Of a stretch of 64,000 nucleotides of DNA, positions 7,188 through 16,668 are shown one piece after another. Position 1 is the first letter of the stretch. The number at the start of each line of letters is the position of its first letter. The translations under genes were made by a program, and so were the position numbers. The notes beneath the pieces were generated by a model. The model was not told the DNA's origin and ran no database searches. It saw nothing but the letters and a program-made list of their open reading frames with translations. The stretch lies in contig NZ_CP048117.1 in assembly GCF_000469135.2 (NCBI RefSeq), forward strand, positions 1,277,501-1,341,500. Direction: 5' to 3'. The stretch is from Bacillus sp. SB49 (GTDB lineage: Bacteria; Bacillota; Bacilli; Bacillales; Halobacillaceae).

Positions 7188-7973
7188 GTGGAAAGCGGGG
7201 AGTACATTATTCAGTTACAGCGAATCGTAGAAAGCAAAACGTTCACAAACTTCATTCTGGCGGTCATCCTTTTCAATGCCGTCCTGCTCGGTCTTGCGAC
7301 AGACGAGCGGATTTACGCATCCTATGAGAATATCTTCATTCTTCTCGATATCGTCATCCTGGCGATCTTCACCATTGAAATCCTGATGAAAATAGTGGTC
7401 TACCGTCTGCGTTTCTTCCGAGATGGGTGGAACATCTTCGACTTTGTCATCGTATTCGGCACGCTTATTTTATACAACAGCCACTTCATCGCTGTCCTGC
7501 GGATTCTCCGGGTTCTCCGGGTACTGCGGACGATTTCTGTCGTTCCATCGTTACGCAGGCTGACGACCGCACTGTTCATGGCCATTCCGGCGATTGGATC
7601 GGTGACGCTCTTAATGGGAATCATCTTTTACGTCTATGCCATCATCGGAACGAGCTTCTTCGGCGAACTTGCACCGGAATATTTCGGAGATGTCGGGTTA
7701 AGCACGCTGACGCTTTTCCAAGTGTTCACACTGGAGAGCTGGGCAAGCGGCGTCTTCCGGCCGATCTTTGCAGAAGTAACATGGTCCTGGCTGTATTTTG
7801 TTTCGTTCATTATCATTTCCGCTTTCATCATCCTCAACCTTATCGTCGGGGAAATCGTCAATAATGCCCAGCAGCTGTCTGAGCATGCCGAAGAGGAAAG
7901 CAGGGATATGGAACGGATCAAGCAGGATCTGCAGGAATTGAAGCAGATGGTGAGAGAAAATGGAAAACATTGA
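7188..7973 (+). CDS. NaChBac-like voltage-gated sodium channel
   Basis: 261 residues with one six-helix domain as in homotetrameric bacterial sodium channels. S4 carries arginines at every third position (105, 108, 111, 114). The pore has TLESWAS at 181-187, the filter that gives NaChBac its Na+ selectivity. S6 (about 205-228) is followed by an acidic coiled-coil tail of about 30 residues typical of tetramerisation. In alkaliphilic and marine Bacillaceae these channels serve pH homeostasis, motility and chemotaxis. The start is uncertain: GTG at 7188 has no ribosome site, whereas GCGGGGAG sits six bases before an in-frame ATT at 7209. Confidence 0.9.
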   Translation: MESGEYIIQLQRIVESKTFTNFILAVILFNAVLLGLATDERIYASYENIFILLDIVILAIFTIEILMKIVVYRLRFFRDGWNIFDFVIVFGTLILYNSHFIAVLRILRVLRVLRTISVVPSLRRLTTALFMAIPAIGSVTLLMGIIFYVYAIIGTSFFGELAPEYFGDVGLSTLTLFQVFTLESWASGVFRPIFAEVTWSWLYFVSFIIISAFIILNLIVGEIVNNAQQLSEHAEEESRDMERIKQDLQELKQMVRENGKH

Positions 7974-9941: not shown

Positions 9942-10508
9942 TTACATATACCAGACTTCATTATTCGTCGATGATATGGCGACGGCGCCTGCTTTGATCG
10001 CTTCTACGACATCTTCTTTCTCGCATACAAGGCCACTGGCGATAATGGGGATATGTACTTTGTCTTTAACCCAGCCGATTGCTTTCGGCATCATGCCGGG
10101 GAGGATTTCTATGAAGTGGGGGGAGGAGTTTGCAATCTGCTTATCGATGCTTTTAAAGGAAATGGAATCGACAAGAAAGAATCGGTGAACCGTATAAAAA
10201 CCGTAATTTTTGGCGGCGCGGACCATTTGTGCTTTCGTTGATATGATCCCGTCTGCCTGGGTGTTTTCTTTTAGGAACTGCAGGGAAACTTCTTTATTCG
10301 ATGTACCTTCCAGCAGGTCGATGTGCACGAAAGCAAGCTTCCCGTGGGTTTTCACTTTCTCTACAATCTCACCTACATTGATGATGTCACTATTCAGGAT
10401 GAATATAATTGTACAATCCGTCTGGATCGCTTCTTCTAATCCTTTGTCATCTTTTACAGCTGCGATGACTGGATTTTCTTCCAGCGCTTCTTCGACATGA
10501 TCTCTCAT
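9942..10508 (-). CDS. GlpP/YgcP-type RNA-binding transcription antiterminator
   Basis: 188 residues covering the whole glycerol-3-phosphate-responsive antiterminator family, a small alpha/beta barrel; GLVCEKEDVVEAIKAGAVAISST at the C-terminus is typical. In Bacillus subtilis GlpP binds leader mRNA of glp genes in response to glycerol-3-phosphate. E. coli YgcP is the same family and lies beside relatives of the divergent operon here, so this may answer to a different ligand. I assign ATG at 10508, with AAGGAG at the right distance; GTG at 10526 is the alternative. It is divergent from the SDR-kinase-oxidase-transporter operon, whose leader carries a terminator. Candidate promoter on this strand: TTTACT-N16-TATAAT (plus coordinates 10568-10541). 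Confidence 0.85.
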   Translation of the reverse strand: MRDHVEEALEENPVIAAVKDDKGLEEAIQTDCTIIFILNSDIINVGEIVEKVKTHGKLAFVHIDLLEGTSNKEVSLQFLKENTQADGIISTKAQMVRAAKNYGFYTVHRFFLVDSISFKSIDKQIANSSPHFIEILPGMMPKAIGWVKDKVHIPIIASGLVCEKEDVVEAIKAGAVAISSTNNEVWYM

Positions 10509-10605
10509 AATAGTCTCCTTATCCACATATTTCTCTTTTTATTATATACAAATACTAGTTTAAGTAAAAGGGGAGGGCTCCTTGGGAAGGGAATCATGTC
10601 CGAAT

Positions 10606-10634
10606 TTGACAGTCTGTGTAACTATGCCTATACT
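10606..10634 (+). promoter_or_regulatory. Near-consensus SigA promoter of the SDR-kinase-oxidase-BCCT operon
   Basis: TTGACA (10606-10611), 17-base spacer, TATACT (10629-10634). Transcription would begin near 10641, giving a leader of about 105 bases that contains a full terminator. Confidence 0.8.
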
Positions 10635-10660
10635 TATAGACAGTTAGAGTTACTAGAGCC

Positions 10661-10713
10661 GAGAGAAAAGTAACTTCCTCCTTGGGGGAAGTATGCTTTT
10701 CTCTCTTTTTTTT
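10661..10713 (+). terminator. Leader terminator, likely antitermination target
   Basis: GAGAGAAAAG (10661-10670) pairs with CTTTTCTCTC (10696-10705) and inner ACTTCC pairs with GGAAGT, followed by eight T. It lies between the promoter and the first gene, so most transcripts would end here unless termination is overridden. The adjacent GlpP/YgcP-type protein is the obvious candidate. The RNA-binding site is not established. Confidence 0.8.
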
Positions 10714-10745
10714 GCTCGAAAACTGCTCAGGAAGGAGTGGAAGAT

Positions 10746-11522
10746 ATGGACATGACCGATTTTTCGATGGATTTCTTTTCCTTGAAGGGAAAGACAGCCA
10801 TCGTCACCGGTGGAAATACAGGCTTGGGTCGTGCATTTTCTCTTGCCCTGGCGAAAGCAGGGGCGGACCTTTTTATTCCGAGTCTTACAGAAGACGATGG
10901 AACGACGAGGCAACTTATTGAACAGACCGGAGCCAAGATGGAGTTCATGGAAGTGAACTTGACGGAAGACGGTGCCGCTAAAAGGATCGTCGACCGCTGT
11001 CTGGAAACGATGGGCGCGCTTGATATCGTCGTCAACAGTGCCGGGATGAATACCGTAGCAGAATTTAACGAGTTCGGACGGGACAAATGGGATCCGTTGA
11101 TGCAGGTGAATTTAACGGCAGCGTTCGAAATGAGTCACGAGGCTGCGAAAGTGATGATTCCGAAGCGTCAAGGGAAGATCATCAACATCTGTTCGGTGTT
11201 TTCCTACCACGGAGGACAGGGTTCTCCTGCCTACACGGCGAGTAAGCACGGTATTGCCGGACTTACAAAGGCGTATTGCGATGAACTGGCTCAGTACAAT
11301 ATCCAAGTGAACGGGATCGCTCCCGGTTACTATGCCACAGATATAACGGAAAACACACGCAATGACCCGGCAGCCAACCAGAAAGTGTTGGATCACACAC
11401 CTGCCAGCCGCTGGGGCGAACCGGCTGATTTGATGGGAGCGACCGTCTTTCTGGCAAGCCGGGCTGCCGACTACGTCAATGGACACATCATGGCAGTGGA
11501 CGGAGGATACCTTGTCCGCTGA
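10746..11522 (+). CDS. SDR family oxidoreductase (KduD/YgcW-like)
   Basis: 258 residues from ATG at 10746 (AAGGAG eight bases upstream; GTG at 10737 also in frame). The Rossmann glycine motif TGGNTGLG, NSAG after strand 4, the catalytic Ser of ICSVFSY, and YTASK are all present, as is the C-terminal ASRAADYVNGHIMAVDGG of classical SDRs. It resembles 2-deoxy-D-gluconate 3-dehydrogenase (KduD) and E. coli YgcW. It is first in an operon with an FGGY kinase, an FAD oxidoreductase and a BCCT transporter, so it probably oxidises or reduces a polyol or sugar-acid hydroxyl. The substrate is unknown. Confidence 0.85.
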   Translation: MDMTDFSMDFFSLKGKTAIVTGGNTGLGRAFSLALAKAGADLFIPSLTEDDGTTRQLIEQTGAKMEFMEVNLTEDGAAKRIVDRCLETMGALDIVVNSAGMNTVAEFNEFGRDKWDPLMQVNLTAAFEMSHEAAKVMIPKRQGKIINICSVFSYHGGQGSPAYTASKHGIAGLTKAYCDELAQYNIQVNGIAPGYYATDITENTRNDPAANQKVLDHTPASRWGEPADLMGATVFLASRAADYVNGHIMAVDGGYLVR

Positions 11523-11548
11523 TTAGGGAGAAAGGAGCTGGGGGCGAA

Positions 11549-12991
11549 ATGACGGAACGCTACATAATTGGAGTCGACGGAGGATCACAGAGTACGAAGG
11601 TGGTGATCTACGACTTGAAAGGAAACCCGGTCAGCCGGGGAGTACAGCCGCTGAAGCAGGTGGATACTCCCGAACCCGGGCAGGTGGAGCATCCGGGAGA
11701 TGATCTTTGGGACTCCCTTGCTGCTGCATCGAAAAAGGCGATGGATCAGTTCTCCGGTGACAGGGAAGCTATCGTCGGAGTCGGGTTGTGCACGATCCGC
11801 TTCGTCCGCTGTCTGTTGAAAGCAGACGGATGCCTTGCTTCCCCAGCCCAAAGCTGGATGGATGAGAGGGTCTCCAAACCATATGAACAGGAAGATTCGG
11901 AAGTTTCCTACGTCACGACATCCTCTGGTTATCTCACGCATCGGCTGACTGGAGAGAAAAAGGATTCTGCAGGGAATTACCAGGGCCAGTGGCCGATAGA
12001 TACAGATACGTGGGGGTGGAGTGAAGAGGATTCCTTGTATGAGCAATACAACCTGTCGAAAGACATGCTCTTTGACCTCTACCCTCCTGGAACCATCCTC
12101 GGCCATATCACGGAGGAGGCGTCTTTGGCTACCGGCATTCCGAAGGGGCTTCCGGTCGTTGCAACCGCCAATGATAAAGCGGTGGAAGCGCTTGGTGCGG
12201 GCATCCGCACACAAGAGACGGCACTGATTTCCCTGGGAACGTACATAGCGGGGATGGTGCACGGCGGTAGGCAGAATGTGAAGGAAGCAGAGAATTACTG
12301 GACGAACTTTTCTGCTGTACCGCAGGAGTATCTCTACGAAAGTGGAGGAATCCGGCGGGGAATGTGGACCGTCAGCTGGTTCAAAGAGCTGCTTGGTGAA
12401 GACCTCGTGAAAAAAGCGGAAGCGTCGGGGGTTTCACCGGAGGATTACTTAAACGCGGAAGCGGATTCCCGTGTCCCGCCGGGAAGTGACGGACTCCTTA
12501 CCGTTCTCGACTGGCTGGCTCCTGCGGGGCAGCCGTATAAGAAAGGCATGATGATCGGCTTCGACGTCCGTCATACAGGTGCCCATATGTACCGGTCGAT
12601 TCTTGAAGGGATCGCCCTTACGATGAAAGCCCACATGGATGCTATGTACGCGGAGATGGGAGAACGGCTGGAACGTATCATCCTTACGGGCGGGGGCTCC
12701 AACGGGGACTTGATGATGCAGATTTTTGCCGACGTGTTCGGTGTACCGGCAGACAGGAATGTGATCAACGGTTCCGCCAGCCTCGGGTCAGCGATTAATA
12801 CATCCGTTGCGCTGGGGATCTACGAGAACTACGACCAGGCGATAACGGAGATGGTGAAGGTCAAAGACAGTTTTTCGCCGGACATGGACACGCACGATTT
12901 TTATACGCGGTTTAATGAAGAAGTGTACCAGCAAATAACGGCACATACAGACCCGGTTTTGAAGCAGGCGCATGCCTTTTTCAACCGGTAA
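11549..12991 (+). CDS. FGGY family carbohydrate kinase (YgcE-like)
   Basis: 480 residues, full length. The N-terminal phosphate motif GVDGGSQSTKVVIYD, ATANDKAVEALGAG mid-protein, and LERIILTGGGSNGDLMMQIFADVFG near the C-terminus are FGGY hallmarks. The family phosphorylates glycerol, xylulose, gluconate, ribulose and similar compounds; this branch most resembles E. coli YgcE, which lacks a firm substrate. AAAGGAG precedes the ATG, 26 bases after the SDR gene. With the dehydrogenase and the FAD oxidoreductase it forms a three-enzyme pathway for an imported polyol-like compound. Confidence 0.85.
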   Translation: MTERYIIGVDGGSQSTKVVIYDLKGNPVSRGVQPLKQVDTPEPGQVEHPGDDLWDSLAAASKKAMDQFSGDREAIVGVGLCTIRFVRCLLKADGCLASPAQSWMDERVSKPYEQEDSEVSYVTTSSGYLTHRLTGEKKDSAGNYQGQWPIDTDTWGWSEEDSLYEQYNLSKDMLFDLYPPGTILGHITEEASLATGIPKGLPVVATANDKAVEALGAGIRTQETALISLGTYIAGMVHGGRQNVKEAENYWTNFSAVPQEYLYESGGIRRGMWTVSWFKELLGEDLVKKAEASGVSPEDYLNAEADSRVPPGSDGLLTVLDWLAPAGQPYKKGMMIGFDVRHTGAHMYRSILEGIALTMKAHMDAMYAEMGERLERIILTGGGSNGDLMMQIFADVFGVPADRNVINGSASLGSAINTSVALGIYENYDQAITEMVKVKDSFSPDMDTHDFYTRFNEEVYQQITAHTDPVLKQAHAFFNR

Positions 12992-13042
12992 GAAGCTGCC
13001 GTTTTCTATAAATCTATCAATTTAAGATGAGGAGTTTTAACT

Positions 13043-14488
13043 ATGGCATTGACAAGAGAACAGATTGTAAAGGACATCCAGGCATTTATTGCAGAAGACA
13101 GGGTCATTACAGAAGAAGAAGTGTTGAAAGAAAACAGTGTGGACCGTTTCCGTAAATATGAAACGATTCACGGGATCTACACGCAGCCGCTTCCTGCTGC
13201 TGTCGTCAAAGTGAAAGATGAGCAGGAAGTATCCGATCTCCTTCGTTATATGAATGACAACGGTATTAACGCTGTACCTCGTACCGGCGGTTCTGCTACG
13301 GAAGGTGGTCTGGAGACGGCTGTGGAGAATTCCATCGTCATCGATGGATCAGGAATGGATGAGATTGTAAGCATCGATCCGTACGATATGCTGGCGACCG
13401 TCAAATGCGGCGTTCCATTAGAAGTGTTGGAGGATAAGCTTAGGGAACAAGGGTTGACGACGGGCCACTCTCCGCAGTCGAAGCCGCTCGCTCAAATGGG
13501 CGGACTGGTAGCGACGCGTAGTATCGGCCAGCTTTCTACTTTGTACGGTGGCATTGAAGACATGGTGATCGGTCTGGAAGCGGTATTTCCGAATGGCGAA
13601 GTGACAAAAATCAGAAACATCCCGCGTCGCGCGGCAGGACCTGATATTCGTCATGTCATCATCGGCAACGAAGGAGCCCTTTGCTACATTACGGAAGTGA
13701 CCGTGAAGGTCTTCAAGTATCAGCCGGATAACAACCGCTACTTCGGGTACTTATTGGATGATATGAAGAAAGGATTTGAAATTCTACGGGAAGTGATGGT
13801 GCAGGGGTACCGTCCGTCTGTGGCCCGGCTGTACGATCCGGAAGATGGAGCGGATCATTTTGATTTCTCGAAAGGTAAATGTGTCCTTATCTTCATGGCG
13901 GAAGGTCCGAAGGCTTTGGCAGAAGTGACGGGAGCAGCTATTGAAGAAATCGTCAGCGAGCACGGGCCGGCGGAACAAGTGGAAAGCCGTTTGATTCAGA
14001 ACTGGTTCGAGAACCTGAACTGGGACCCGGCAAAAGTGCTGGAAGAGAGAAAAGAAATCAAAGAGACGAACAATATCGGATTTACGACAGAAGTATCAGG
14101 GACATGGGGCGTCATTCATGATATTTATGAGCGGTGCATCAAACGCGTGCGGGAAGAGATTCCTCACATTACTATGCTCGGCGGTCACTCCTCGCACAGT
14201 TACATGAACGGTACGAATATGTATTTCGTTTATTATTACGACCTTGTTGACATTAAGCCGGAAGAAGAAATCACCAAATATCATTATCCGATCAACAAGA
14301 TCATTGTAGAAGAAACGATCAAGGCGGGCGGTTCCATGGTCCACCACCATGGTGTCGGAAAGCACAGAACCCCATGGATCAAAGAGGAATATGGTTCTTC
14401 CTATTATATTTTGGAAACGCTCAAGCAGGCATTTGACCCGAAAGGCATCATGAATAAAGGGACAATCTTCCCGAAAGAAGATAAGTAA
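13043..14488 (+). CDS. FAD-binding oxidoreductase (GlcD/YgcU-like)
   Basis: 481 residues. Residues about 45-225 form an FAD-binding type 4 (PCMH/VAO) domain: PRTGGSATEGGLE is the pyrophosphate loop, followed by GHSPQSKPLAQMGGLVATRSIGQLSTLYGG. The C-terminal half matches the FAD-linked oxidase cap of glycolate/D-lactate oxidases, ending in AFDPKGIMNKGTIFP. Closest in memory is E. coli YgcU, related to alkylglycerone-phosphate synthase and GlcD. It likely oxidises a 2-hydroxy acid or hydroxyphosphate made by the two upstream enzymes. GAGGAG precedes the ATG. Confidence 0.85.
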   Translation: MALTREQIVKDIQAFIAEDRVITEEEVLKENSVDRFRKYETIHGIYTQPLPAAVVKVKDEQEVSDLLRYMNDNGINAVPRTGGSATEGGLETAVENSIVIDGSGMDEIVSIDPYDMLATVKCGVPLEVLEDKLREQGLTTGHSPQSKPLAQMGGLVATRSIGQLSTLYGGIEDMVIGLEAVFPNGEVTKIRNIPRRAAGPDIRHVIIGNEGALCYITEVTVKVFKYQPDNNRYFGYLLDDMKKGFEILREVMVQGYRPSVARLYDPEDGADHFDFSKGKCVLIFMAEGPKALAEVTGAAIEEIVSEHGPAEQVESRLIQNWFENLNWDPAKVLEERKEIKETNNIGFTTEVSGTWGVIHDIYERCIKRVREEIPHITMLGGHSSHSYMNGTNMYFVYYYDLVDIKPEEEITKYHYPINKIIVEETIKAGGSMVHHHGVGKHRTPWIKEEYGSSYYILETLKQAFDPKGIMNKGTIFPKEDK

Positions 14489-14515
14489 ATGCTTCTTCTC
14501 TAAATGTAGTCGACT

Positions 14516-14543
14516 GCCGGACCGGAATAAGAACCGGTCCGGC
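14516..14543 (+). other. Intercistronic hairpin before the BCCT gene
   Basis: GCCGGACCGG (14516-14525) pairs perfectly with CCGGTCCGGC (14534-14543) around an 8-base loop. No T-run follows directly, so it is more likely an mRNA-stabilising or processing element, or a weak attenuator, than a full terminator. Confidence 0.6.
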
Positions 14544-14627
14544 GGTGTCTGCATTTTTATAATGACGAAACGGCAGAGGGAAGTCTGCTGAAACATAGAA
14601 AACCTGTTGAAAACAAGGAGGAAAAAT

Positions 14628-16172
14628 ATGAGTAGCAAAAAAAGGGTGCGGATTCGTCCGCTGGTATTTTTGCCAGCCTTTGTATTACTCTTACTTACGA
14701 TTATATTAAACTTTGTCAGCTATGATTGGTTTTTACACGTTACGACCGTCGCCAAAAACTTCATGACGCAGGAGCTCGGCTGGGTGTACAGTCTTGCAGG
14801 CGTCGCTTGTGTTATCCTGATTATCTTCGCGTACTTCTCTCCACTTGGAAACGTGAAGATCGGGGGAGCAGAGGCGAAGCCTTTACTTAGAAAGAAAACA
14901 TGGTTTGCCATCACGTTGACAACGACGATCGCTGCCGGAATTTTGTTTTGGGGAACAGCAGAGCCGATTTCTCACTTCACCTCTCCTCCACAATCGCTTG
15001 GGATTGAGCCGATGTCTGCGGAGGCGGCCATTTTTGCAATGGAAACGCTCTATCTGCACTGGACATTCATCCCGTATGCGTTCTATTCCATCCCTACCAT
15101 CGTGTTTGCCTTCGCTTATTACAACATGAAGCGCTCCTTTAGTGTAGGCTCGCAAATTTCGCCGGCTCTCAGGAATTACAATCAAGATAAAATCAACACG
15201 GTCGTCGATGCGGTGATCCTTTTTGCAGTAGCCGCGGCCATTGCTTCCTCCTTCGGTACGTCCGTAATGAATATGGGCGGAGGAATCAACTCGCTGTTCG
15301 GCATTGATAATGATAAATCGCTCTGGGTCGTCATCACCATCATCGGGACCATTGCCTTCATCGTCTCTTCCAGTACGGGTCTGATGAAGGGAATCCGGGT
15401 GCTGGCTGACTTTAATATCTACTTGTACTACATCATCATAGCTGCGCTGATTATTCTCGGTCCGACCGTCTTCATGTTCAGTATGGGAACGGAAAGCTTT
15501 GGAGGGTTCCTGTCGAACTTCTTTGATAAAGCACTGTTCACCGGAGAAACAGCGAACGACGATTGGGCAAGCGGCTGGACGACCTTCTATTGGTCGAACT
15601 GGATGGCCTGGGCTCCTGTAACAGCTGTTTTCCTGGCAAGGATCGCCTACGGATATACGGTCAAAGAAGTCATAATGATGAACTTCGTCATCCCCGGCTT
15701 TTTCAGTGTCCTATGGATGACGGTGCTGGGTGGAACCGCCCTTAATTTCCAAATGACGGGGAAGGTTGATCTGGCGGAAGTGATTGCTGAACAGGGAACA
15801 GGGGCAGCCGGTTACGCTGTTTTAAGTGAGCTGCCGTTTGCAAGTGTTCTGATTATCATCTACCTGCTTGCTGTCATGATTTCATTTGTCACGGCAACAG
15901 ATTCGACGACGAATGCGATGGCAAGCATCAGTTCCACCGGGATAACCGAGGGGTCCCAGGAAGCTCCTGTCTTCATCAAAGTGACGTGGGGTGTGATTGT
16001 AGGTGCTGTTGCGCTGATTTTCATTTCCACCCTTGGGTTGGACGGGATTCGGACGCTTTCTTATCTGGGTGGGTTTCCGGCTCTCTTCCTCGGTGTATTG
16101 AGCTTGATTTCGTTAATGGTCATTATGAAAAATCCGAAGAAATTTGATCGTCATTCTTCAGATAGACAATAA
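14628..16172 (+). CDS. BCCT family transporter, variant binding site
   Basis: 514 residues with about 12 helices of the betaine/choline/carnitine transporter fold (LeuT-like, Na+- or H+-coupled or exchanger). FWGTAEPISH and WAPVTAVFLARIAYGYTVKE are BCCT motifs. The usual substrate-box tryptophans are only partly kept: the HWTFIPYAFY stretch has Tyr where many members have a second Trp, and YWSNWMAWAP has Asn in the Trp pair. The ligand may therefore not be a standard betaine. ATG at 14628 follows AAGGAGG. It closes the SDR-kinase-oxidase operon, so it probably imports that pathway's substrate rather than an osmoprotectant. Confidence 0.85.
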   Translation: MSSKKRVRIRPLVFLPAFVLLLLTIILNFVSYDWFLHVTTVAKNFMTQELGWVYSLAGVACVILIIFAYFSPLGNVKIGGAEAKPLLRKKTWFAITLTTTIAAGILFWGTAEPISHFTSPPQSLGIEPMSAEAAIFAMETLYLHWTFIPYAFYSIPTIVFAFAYYNMKRSFSVGSQISPALRNYNQDKINTVVDAVILFAVAAAIASSFGTSVMNMGGGINSLFGIDNDKSLWVVITIIGTIAFIVSSSTGLMKGIRVLADFNIYLYYIIIAALIILGPTVFMFSMGTESFGGFLSNFFDKALFTGETANDDWASGWTTFYWSNWMAWAPVTAVFLARIAYGYTVKEVIMMNFVIPGFFSVLWMTVLGGTALNFQMTGKVDLAEVIAEQGTGAAGYAVLSELPFASVLIIIYLLAVMISFVTATDSTTNAMASISSTGITEGSQEAPVFIKVTWGVIVGAVALIFISTLGLDGIRTLSYLGGFPALFLGVLSLISLMVIMKNPKKFDRHSSDRQ

Positions 16173-16178
16173 AGGGAA

Positions 16179-16206
16179 AAGCCGGCAGATTGCCGGCTTT
16201 TTTTTA
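16179..16206 (+). terminator. Terminator of the SDR-kinase-oxidase-BCCT operon
   Basis: AAGCCGGCA pairs with TGCCGGCTT, followed by eight T. Confidence 0.85.
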
Positions 16207-16668
16207 ATGAAAAGGCTTAGTTAAAGTTTGTTGTTGATATTTGAACAATTAGAACAAGTGTCCTTGGTTCAAGCGTCTATATCTAATGGGAAAGTCTTTT
16301 TAAATTGTTCAAAAAACCCTGTATAGGCTAGCAAAGAGTTTTGTATTAGTCATTGGTACTTCGTTCGTTATATTGGGTGCTTGGGTGATATAAGCGTTAC
16401 GGTTACCTCGGATTCATATCGTACGTAAACGGGGGCAATAGCTGAAAATTATATAGTTAATCTTCAGCTATTTCTTTTATTCAAGAACGCAGTTGTCTAG
16501 AAGACAAAATTTCGAAGTATTTTTAAAAAGGTACTCTTTATCCATTGTGTTGAAAATGAATTGTTAAATATATACATAGACATTTAGATAAGGTGTTGAG
16601 GTTGCTAATTCACGTGGTTTAAAACTATAGAACAAAAAGCTCTCACTTTTGGCGGTTTTTTATTTGTT
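16207..16668. other. AT-rich gene-poor stretch with a decayed gene end
   Basis: No convincing gene. It is visibly more AT-rich than the flanks. A hydrophobic stretch can be read near 16325-16393 in one plus frame, ending in TAA, without a start. A hairpin AATAGCTGA/TCAGCTATT with a trailing CTTTT (about 16437-16480) looks like the terminator of a lost gene. This is the left part of an island that runs to about 18.7 kb. Confidence 0.5.

Follow-up and report, generated by a model that had tools for sequence, protein, structure and literature searches.

This study describes an operon of Bacillus sp. SB49 (hereafter the host) that resembles the ygc cassette of Escherichia coli, together with the RNA element in its leader, the putative target of an antiterminator protein. 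The operon was analysed within a window of 64,000 nucleotides, positions 1277501-1341500 of the single-contig 3.77-Mb host genome, and the features below are given in window coordinates.

The first gene of the locus lies on the reverse strand at 9942..10508 and encodes a YgcP-type antiterminator, identified by BLASTP and by a match to the full length of its Pfam family (PF04309: profile 1-173 of 173, 1.1e-65, 220.8 bits, cut-off 27). Its open reading frame (ORF) reaches a GTG at 10526; judged by eye from a Shine-Dalgarno-like site and from the 188 amino acid length of the relatives, the ATG at 10508 is the likely true start. Divergent from it, on the forward strand, follow a short-chain dehydrogenase (SDR) orthologous to YgcW (10746..11522, ORF listed from 10737), an FGGY kinase orthologous to YgcE (11549..12991) and a flavin adenine dinucleotide (FAD) enzyme with FAD_binding_4 and FAD-oxidase_C domains orthologous to YgcU (13043..14488), all three assigned by profile and BLASTP. 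The fourth gene encodes a betaine/carnitine/choline transporter (BCCT) of the cassette subfamily (14628..16172, ORF listed from 14607), assigned by profile and motif. The starts at 10746 and 14628 are likewise likely, on the same two kinds of evidence. The transporter gene is followed on the forward strand by a terminator-like hairpin with a T run (16177..16205), read from the sequence; the program-made list assigns the hairpin (16177-16201) to the opposite strand. A strong GC-rich inverted repeat (GCCGGACCGG...CCGGTCCGGC), seen by eye, lies at 14516-14545 in the gap that separates the FAD and BCCT genes and could partly uncouple the expression of the transporter or stabilise the upstream mRNA.

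Two promoter-like sites, both assigned by consensus match only, lie between the divergent genes: TTTACT-N16-TATAAT for the antiterminator gene (10541..10568, reverse strand) and TTGACA-N17-TATACT on the forward strand (10606..10634). The latter agrees with the consensus at 11 of 12 positions and ranks first among 8 promoter-like sites, which as a class are not enriched over shuffled sequences (8 found, 11.2 expected).

The proteins of the window are 58% (ygcP), 65% (ygcW), 55% (ygcE) and 67% (ygcU) identical to those of E. coli in BLASTP, and therefore the locus corresponds to the ygc cassette of E. coli, equipped with a different transporter. The E. coli cluster differs in its gene order, in having major facilitator superfamily (MFS) transporters where the window has the BCCT gene, and in the electron transfer flavoprotein (ETF)-type ygcQR and the ygcNO genes, which the window locus lacks. 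At E 1e-25, the 20 kb surrounding the locus yielded neither MFS transporter nor ETF genes. A previous sequence-only reading of the window had described the forward promoter-like site, a leader terminator with eight T, a divergent gene of the antiterminator family, the order SDR, FGGY kinase, FAD oxidase and BCCT, and a likeness to ygcP, ygcW, ygcE and ygcU; the site and the terminator are present as described, and family profiles and orthology bear out the rest.

Two mutually exclusive folds in the leader RNA

Two structures overlap in the leader of the operon, both on the forward strand. The antiterminator stem-loop, identified by fold and covariation, occupies 10647..10676, with the 5' arm at 10647-10654, a loop with GAG-N4-GAG at 10655-10668 and the 3' arm at 10669-10676, and folds with -5.9 kcal/mol. 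The intrinsic terminator at 10661..10713 consists of a stem (10661-10705) and a U-tract of eight T (10706-10713); the stretch 10658-10713 folds with -28.1 kcal/mol (z = -5.6), and none of 200 shuffled sequences was as good. The 5' arm of the terminator overlaps the 3' arm of the antiterminator, so the AGTAAY arm pairs either upstream or inside the terminator. Across relatives the design is an RTTACT arm, a loop nGAG-N(4-5)-GAGAAA, an AGTAAY arm and a hairpin closed by GAGAAAAGT...GCTTTTCTC, followed by a T run.

In 37 leaders found by a pattern search, pairing is seen in 98.1% of the cells of the antiterminator stem and in 96.7% of those of the terminator. As this first pattern, a regular expression, fixed most of the stem letters and thus biased the conservation count, we counted the pairs again in 120 hits, 116 of them distinct, of a covariance model restricted to the terminator pairs, with no antiterminator pairs. 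This is the more trustworthy count, yet its model was built from the regular expression set, and the hits lie in 69 sources that were picked since earlier searches had found the element there. In the recount, 94.6% of the antiterminator stem is paired, and 4 of its 7 pairs show changes on both sides, mainly GC:79/AU:33 and UA:93/CG:16. There are 53 changed cells, compared with 13.8 in shuffled sequences, none of 500 of which reaches 53, and slid versions of the stem do not exceed 12. The number of pair types is not above that of the shuffles (8 against 8.1), and the outermost pair (columns 6-40) is unpaired in 31 of 116 leaders. The loop letters G, G and GAG (G-x-G...GAG) are invariant in all 120 hits.

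Because the element matches 120 times in 69 sources, the leader is not a chance hairpin. By folding and covariation, it has two mutually exclusive folds, a weak upstream stem-loop and a strong terminator, both of which are conserved. The weak upstream stem would need help to win, and therefore stabilising it is the job to be expected of an antiterminator protein. No Rfam family matched the window at the gathering threshold, and the leaders had only sub-threshold matches in Rfam. Among the fetched loci, the Rfam model of the SurA small RNA scored 25.9 bits (cut-off 100, E 3e-5) at 16305-16579 of locus L073, across the ygcW-yqcE intergenic region.

The combination of a PF04309 protein with a leader terminator is also that of the GlpP - glpD/glpFK system of Bacillus subtilis; the stem sequence and the target genes of the cassette are different. 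GlpP acts with glycerol-3-phosphate on leader terminators, as described in the excerpts of PMC9604022 and PMC7430163, and its binding to the glpD leader was shown in work cited in the excerpt of PMC3997798. The cassette leader has both structures expected of a PF04309 target, a terminator and a competing upstream structure, each of them paired and covarying. The host has another PF04309 protein, encoded beside glpF-, glpK- and glpD-like genes (named by eye). Its glpD leader has the same layout, with GGTC-GGAGATACGGAGA-GACC 5' of a terminator and a small stem with a GAG-N5-GAG loop, and matches the element model weakly (21.5 bits, E 0.24). This stem and loop therefore suggest that one recognition rule may serve both branches. 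The shared Pfam family and the similar glpD leader would also agree with a regulator that senses glycerol-3-phosphate itself, with the operon as an offshoot of glycerol metabolism that is cross-wired with GlpP. This is improbable, as the GlpP-like protein of the host is a separate one that shares only 34% identity with the cassette antiterminator, the stem sequences differ, and no other strong element occurs in the host genome.

Occurrence of the element and the cassette

Of 111 non-redundant loci, 66 have both the element and the antiterminator gene, 40 have neither, three have the element only (L102, L136, L151) and two the gene only (L114, L121). Seven duplicate loci (L038, L039, L042, L043, L045, L046, L047) are omitted from these counts. 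The element was scored as present at 37 bits or more, so that three loci with weaker matches were counted as lacking it: L121 (31.1 bits, just 5' of the SDR gene), in which the antiterminator gene is present, as well as L105 (31.9 bits) and L058 (26.2 bits, 5' of OpuC genes), in which it is absent. The leader hairpin is thus conserved and tracks the antiterminator gene.

The element is found in the leaders of cassette operons from Bacillota to Enterobacteria. In E. coli K-12, it stands 5' of ygcW (53.8 bits) and, divergently, 5' of yqcE-ygcE (53.4 bits), and the intergenic region with both leaders is matched in 5018 of 5426 complete E. coli genomes, in 4998 of them over at least 80% of its length. 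The host genome has a single strong site with 83.8 bits. The next one (G000:C1:1365899, 31.5 bits) resembles by eye an ordinary terminator after an unrelated gene. At E <= 1e-4, a search of 398 genomes of the phylum found sites in four: the host, two genomes with the cassette and one (G572) with the site 5' of a Wzz-type gene. We additionally scanned 39 genomes, of which 36 were reached via cassette loci and three via the phylum search. The element was found in 23 of them, with 35 of 36 hits on cassette contigs, and of the 16 genomes without a hit, no antiterminator gene was found in the fetched loci of 15, whereas Schaalia (L114) has one.

The gene after the element is an SDR gene at 57 of 116 sites, YqcE at 38, BCCT at nine, FAD at six, an ATP-binding cassette (ABC) permease at three, MTTB at two and another gene at one. 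This tally omits the site of the window and those of L151, L190, L191 and L193, the last being a third MTTB site under the element. In the Clostridia-type loci L081, L082 and L086, BCCT genes of either orientation each have an element of their own; together with another copy 5' of the FAD gene, there are three elements per locus. L151, a contig labelled as a Planctomycetota metagenome-assembled genome (MAG), has two leader elements at 158-442 with the same scores as those of E. coli K-12 and is probably a contaminant or misbinned; it was kept in the 111 loci and left out of the 120 hits.

The three enzyme genes are also found together. Close relatives of the kinase occur in 8 of 44 genomes of the family (E <= 1e-60) and in 29 of 397 genomes of the order (E 1e-100), the host included in both. 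SDR and FAD genes are present in all 34 relative loci that were fetched around kinase hits, the 35th locus being the glp region of the host, and all three enzymes were detected in 105 of the 111 loci. The incomplete ones are L105, L106, L110, L118, L144 and L151, which except for L105 are on pieces 3-12 kb long. When named genomes were scanned with the FAD alignment, 487 relatives were found; among the best 80 of these, the closest are from Halobacillus with 87-88% identity. In 22 Bacillales loci (among L044-L072), the same trio is accompanied by an RpiR-type gene with a SIS domain in place of the antiterminator gene, and nine of these loci have a YqcE-like MFS transporter gene. RpiR-type proteins are a family that senses sugar phosphates, and control may have switched from antitermination to a repressor in these loci.

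Enzymes, transporters and neighbouring genes

The best solved relatives of the FAD enzyme are alkyl-dihydroxyacetonephosphate (alkyl-DHAP) synthases (AGPS/ADPS; 4e-45), with which it shares the fold family by sequence and an HHH motif at residues 434-436. According to the excerpt of PMC3509576, three residues of the Dictyostelium enzyme are important in catalysis: R352, R447 and Y508. In a mapping made by hand, with the numbering offset by 3, R352 corresponds to R262 and Y508 to Y394, both of which like H434-H436 are invariant in 12 sequences. R447 aligns with L333, and there is no conserved Arg at this position in the 12 aligned sequences; we therefore regard the FAD enzyme as similar to alkyl-DHAP synthases without classing it as one. 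It also differs in being shorter, in often being encoded near ETF genes and in that no lipid context was seen. ETF genes (YgcQ/R-like) occur in 55 of the 111 loci: in 28 of the 39 enterobacterial-type loci and in 27 of the 47 that belong neither to these nor to the RpiR type. The missing R447 equivalent and the nearby ETF genes weaken a plain redox-neutral reading of the enzyme as an alkyl-DHAP synthase. The openly licensed literature on alkyl-DHAP synthases with bacterial or catabolic scope yielded nothing on a ygc-type system. It is very improbable that the enzyme is a true alkyl-DHAP synthase and that the operon makes an ether compound, perhaps a compatible solute: the solved relatives are of this kind, and SDR, kinase and synthase would mirror the steps of ether-lipid synthesis, but the equivalent of R447 is not conserved, an importer and an inducer-type leader fit catabolism, and the ETF genes suggest a release of electrons.

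The BCCT transporter matches PF02028 with 410.7 bits (cut-off 27) and stays below the cut-offs of all five NCBIfam substrate models it matched (betaine, carnitine, choline), for example with 334 against 650 for betaine. Its best solved relatives are a trimethylamine transporter, DddT and BetP. It has the motif YWSNW, and the cassette BCCTs share YW[STCA]NW, with YWAVW in L094; of the six other BCCT proteins of the host, three have YWAWW and none has Asn at that position. We take these motif positions, from the work on BetP, to line the substrate cage. In the 31 non-enterobacterial loci with an antiterminator gene, 15 have a BCCT gene, 13 an OpuC-type binding protein and three neither (L089, L135 and L190, the last on a 10.5-kb contig). 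OpuC-type betaine ABC transporters, whose binding proteins have ProX and betaine/carnitine/choline-binding proteins as best solved relatives, thus stand in for the BCCT transporter in sister loci. With 7 BCCT and 2 OpuAC places in the host genome, simple arithmetic gives an expectation of about 5% per 20 kb.

These transporters might be nearby merely through their abundance in halophiles and betaine-using anaerobes, the cassette degrading an ordinary sugar acid or polyol. KduD and gluconate 5-dehydrogenase are the top NCBIfam models for the SDR among the 25 listed, none above its cut-off, the kinase is xylulokinase-like, E. coli has MFS transporters, RpiR-type genes replace the antiterminator in the 22 Bacillales loci, and a gene for a sugar-isomerase-like TIM barrel protein is present in Desulfobacula (L110). 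Still, we consider such a substrate unlikely, given that 28 of the 31 loci have BCCT or OpuC and that the element heads BCCT, OpuC and MTTB operons, which is unexplained by background abundance.

Genes for the removal of methyl groups from nitrogen adjoin the cassette or share its element in several anaerobes. In three MAGs (L103, L130, L193), the element stands 5' of an MTTB-PanB-OpuC operon; in L103, L130 and L090, the last of which is the same contig as L193, this operon ends in a proline-racemase-like gene. The MTTB proteins of L193 and L103 are 83% identical; since the three MAGs carry the same operon, they may represent one evolutionary event. On the strand of the cassette and upstream of it, Desulfobacula L110 encodes MTTB (named by clustering with the MTTB of L148), a B12-binding corrinoid protein and a pterin methyltransferase. 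MTTB follows the cassette directly 3' of the kinase gene in L148 and, with another MTTB gene, 3' of the ETF genes in L090. In Geosporobacter (L204) and Sporomusa (L205), the BCCT gene of the cassette and a sigma-54 activator gene are followed by a series encoding a corrinoid protein, a pterin methyltransferase, an octopine-dehydrogenase-like protein, MTTB and an Asp/Glu-racemase-like protein; Sporomusa, whose corrinoid and pterin proteins were named from position and similarity only, additionally has PanB, two further MTTB-like genes and a second BCCT gene. The octopine-dehydrogenase-like proteins of L193, L194, L204 and L205 are 70-84% identical. A search for the element in L204-L206 found none, and therefore the link of their neighbouring genes to the cassette is one of position. 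Furthermore, OpuC, a GbsB-like Fe-alcohol dehydrogenase and a proline-racemase-like gene lie directly 5' of the SDR gene in L145, and L143 has a betaine-aldehyde-dehydrogenase-like gene.

Genes homologous to those for corrinoid-dependent glycine betaine demethylation (MtgB/MtgC/MtgA) with uptake by OpuC or BCCT are thus found beside the cassette, and one operon type with such homologues stands under the same RNA element. Unlike the named betaine systems, the scanned proteins of the MTTB, corrinoid, aldehyde dehydrogenase, Fe-alcohol dehydrogenase, proline-racemase-like and BCCT types fall below the NCBIfam cut-offs for named substrates, except the Fe-alcohol dehydrogenase of L105, which passes that of the glycerol dehydrogenase subfamily. 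NCBIfam cut-offs are passed by the pterin methyltransferase, PanB and the Asp/Glu-racemase-like protein.

Elsewhere in the window, a protein of 261 amino acids encoded at 7188-7973 resembles by eye a bacterial voltage-gated ion channel.

Proposed function and substrate

We propose, with a probability of about 0.6, that the cassette is a YgcP-type antitermination operon which imports and degrades a phosphorylatable polyol with a methylated (quaternary) nitrogen. Without inducer, the terminator would form and transcription would stop. The substrate would enter through the BCCT transporter and the kinase would make its phosphate ester. This phosphate, or a later phosphorylated intermediate, would bind the GlpP-like protein, which would then hold the stem-loop by its GxG...GAG loop and block the terminator, so that the genes for the SDR, the kinase, the FAD enzyme and the transporter are read. 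In the degradation, the SDR would oxidise a hydroxyl to a ketone, the kinase would place a phosphate on the end of the polyol and the alkyl-DHAP-synthase-like FAD enzyme would act at the carbon adjoining the ketone, freeing the part that bears the amine. In anaerobes, this part might then be demethylated by MttB, corrinoid and pterin methyltransferases. Binding of the protein to the loop, the phosphorylated inducer and the enzyme steps are what we infer from sequence comparison.

The sequence-only reading had taken the locus for a dedicated catabolic unit of the antitermination type, which the co-occurrence of element and antiterminator gene and the cohesion of the trio in relatives support. 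It had also suggested a zwitterionic or quaternary amine polyol as substrate. This suggestion, still a hypothesis, is strengthened, as OpuC replaces BCCT in sister loci and N-demethylation genes adjoin the cassette or share its element. Our best guess for the substrate is an amine that is methylated, probably quaternary, and has a polyol part open to phosphorylation, because of the two unrelated families of betaine-type transporters, the control shared with an MttB-type operon and the genes for corrinoid demethylation in three other genera. Three findings go beyond the earlier reading: the alternative antiterminator stem, the presence of the element in E. coli and the resemblance of the FAD enzyme to alkyl-DHAP synthase.

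Several observations weigh against the proposed function. The antiterminator stem alone is not more stable than expected by chance, with 46 of 200 shuffled sequences as low. The 44-bit site of G572, 5' of a gene for a Wzz-type chain-length determinant, is outside any cassette; as none of the ORFs around it encodes an antiterminator, we judge it to be a chance match. ETF genes near the FAD gene argue for an oxidation and not for a redox-neutral cleavage. MTTB lies inside the fetched locus in only 7 of 111 loci and is absent from three halophile genomes close to the host, in a search of 14 genomes that did not include the host genome. MTTB paralogues are abundant, with 6-26 per genome in 11 of these 14, and therefore adjacency alone is weak evidence. 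Seven of the 14 genomes had been picked for an already known nearby MTTB; of the other four that bear MTTB (L083, L085, L094, L145), two have it within about 15 kb of the cassette. Moreover, the 39 enterobacterial-type loci use MFS transporters (YqcE in 39, YgcS in 37, BCCT or OpuC in none), and therefore the substrate may differ in Enterobacteria. BCCT or OpuC genes are present in only 3 of the 22 RpiR-type Bacillales loci without an antiterminator gene, which limits the claim on the transporters to the antiterminator branch.

Within the proposed function, one possible though doubtful substrate is glyceryl-N,N,N-trimethylhomoserine, the headgroup of the betaine lipid diacylglyceryl-N,N,N-trimethylhomoserine (DGTS) of algae, fungi and phosphate-starved bacteria. 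We assume that the deacylated headgroup fits the main types of accessory genes, as it offers a glycerol ether, a trimethylamine group, an alpha-amino-acid carbon and, for PanB, a 4-hydroxy-2-oxo acid. SDR and kinase would turn its glycerol part into a 1-substituted DHAP, in which the FAD enzyme would split the ether bond. In anaerobes, the homoserine betaine would be demethylated by MttB, corrinoid and pterin enzymes, the racemase and octopine-dehydrogenase-like enzymes would lead to 4-hydroxy-2-oxobutanoate, and a PanB-like enzyme would yield pyruvate and methylene-tetrahydrofolate, whereas halophiles such as the host may keep the betaine as an osmolyte. Polyols of the choline or carnitine type may be other candidates. 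The excerpt of PMC10132767 treats DGTS as a membrane lipid and a BCCT-type transporter as usually nonspecific for osmolytes. No description of the bacterial breakdown of such methylated polyols was found in the openly licensed literature, in which the ygc genes are mentioned incidentally; judged by titles and the beginnings of abstracts, none of these papers gives the cassette a function or reports on its leader.

The comparison of the leaders predicts an RNA recognition rule for a second branch of GlpP-type antiterminators. The ygc cluster of E. coli, unexplained so far, thereby gains a uniform test, as the two leaders of K-12 should respond to YgcP. If the betaine-lipid substrate is correct, the cassette would provide genes for the recycling of an abundant phosphorus-free lipid.

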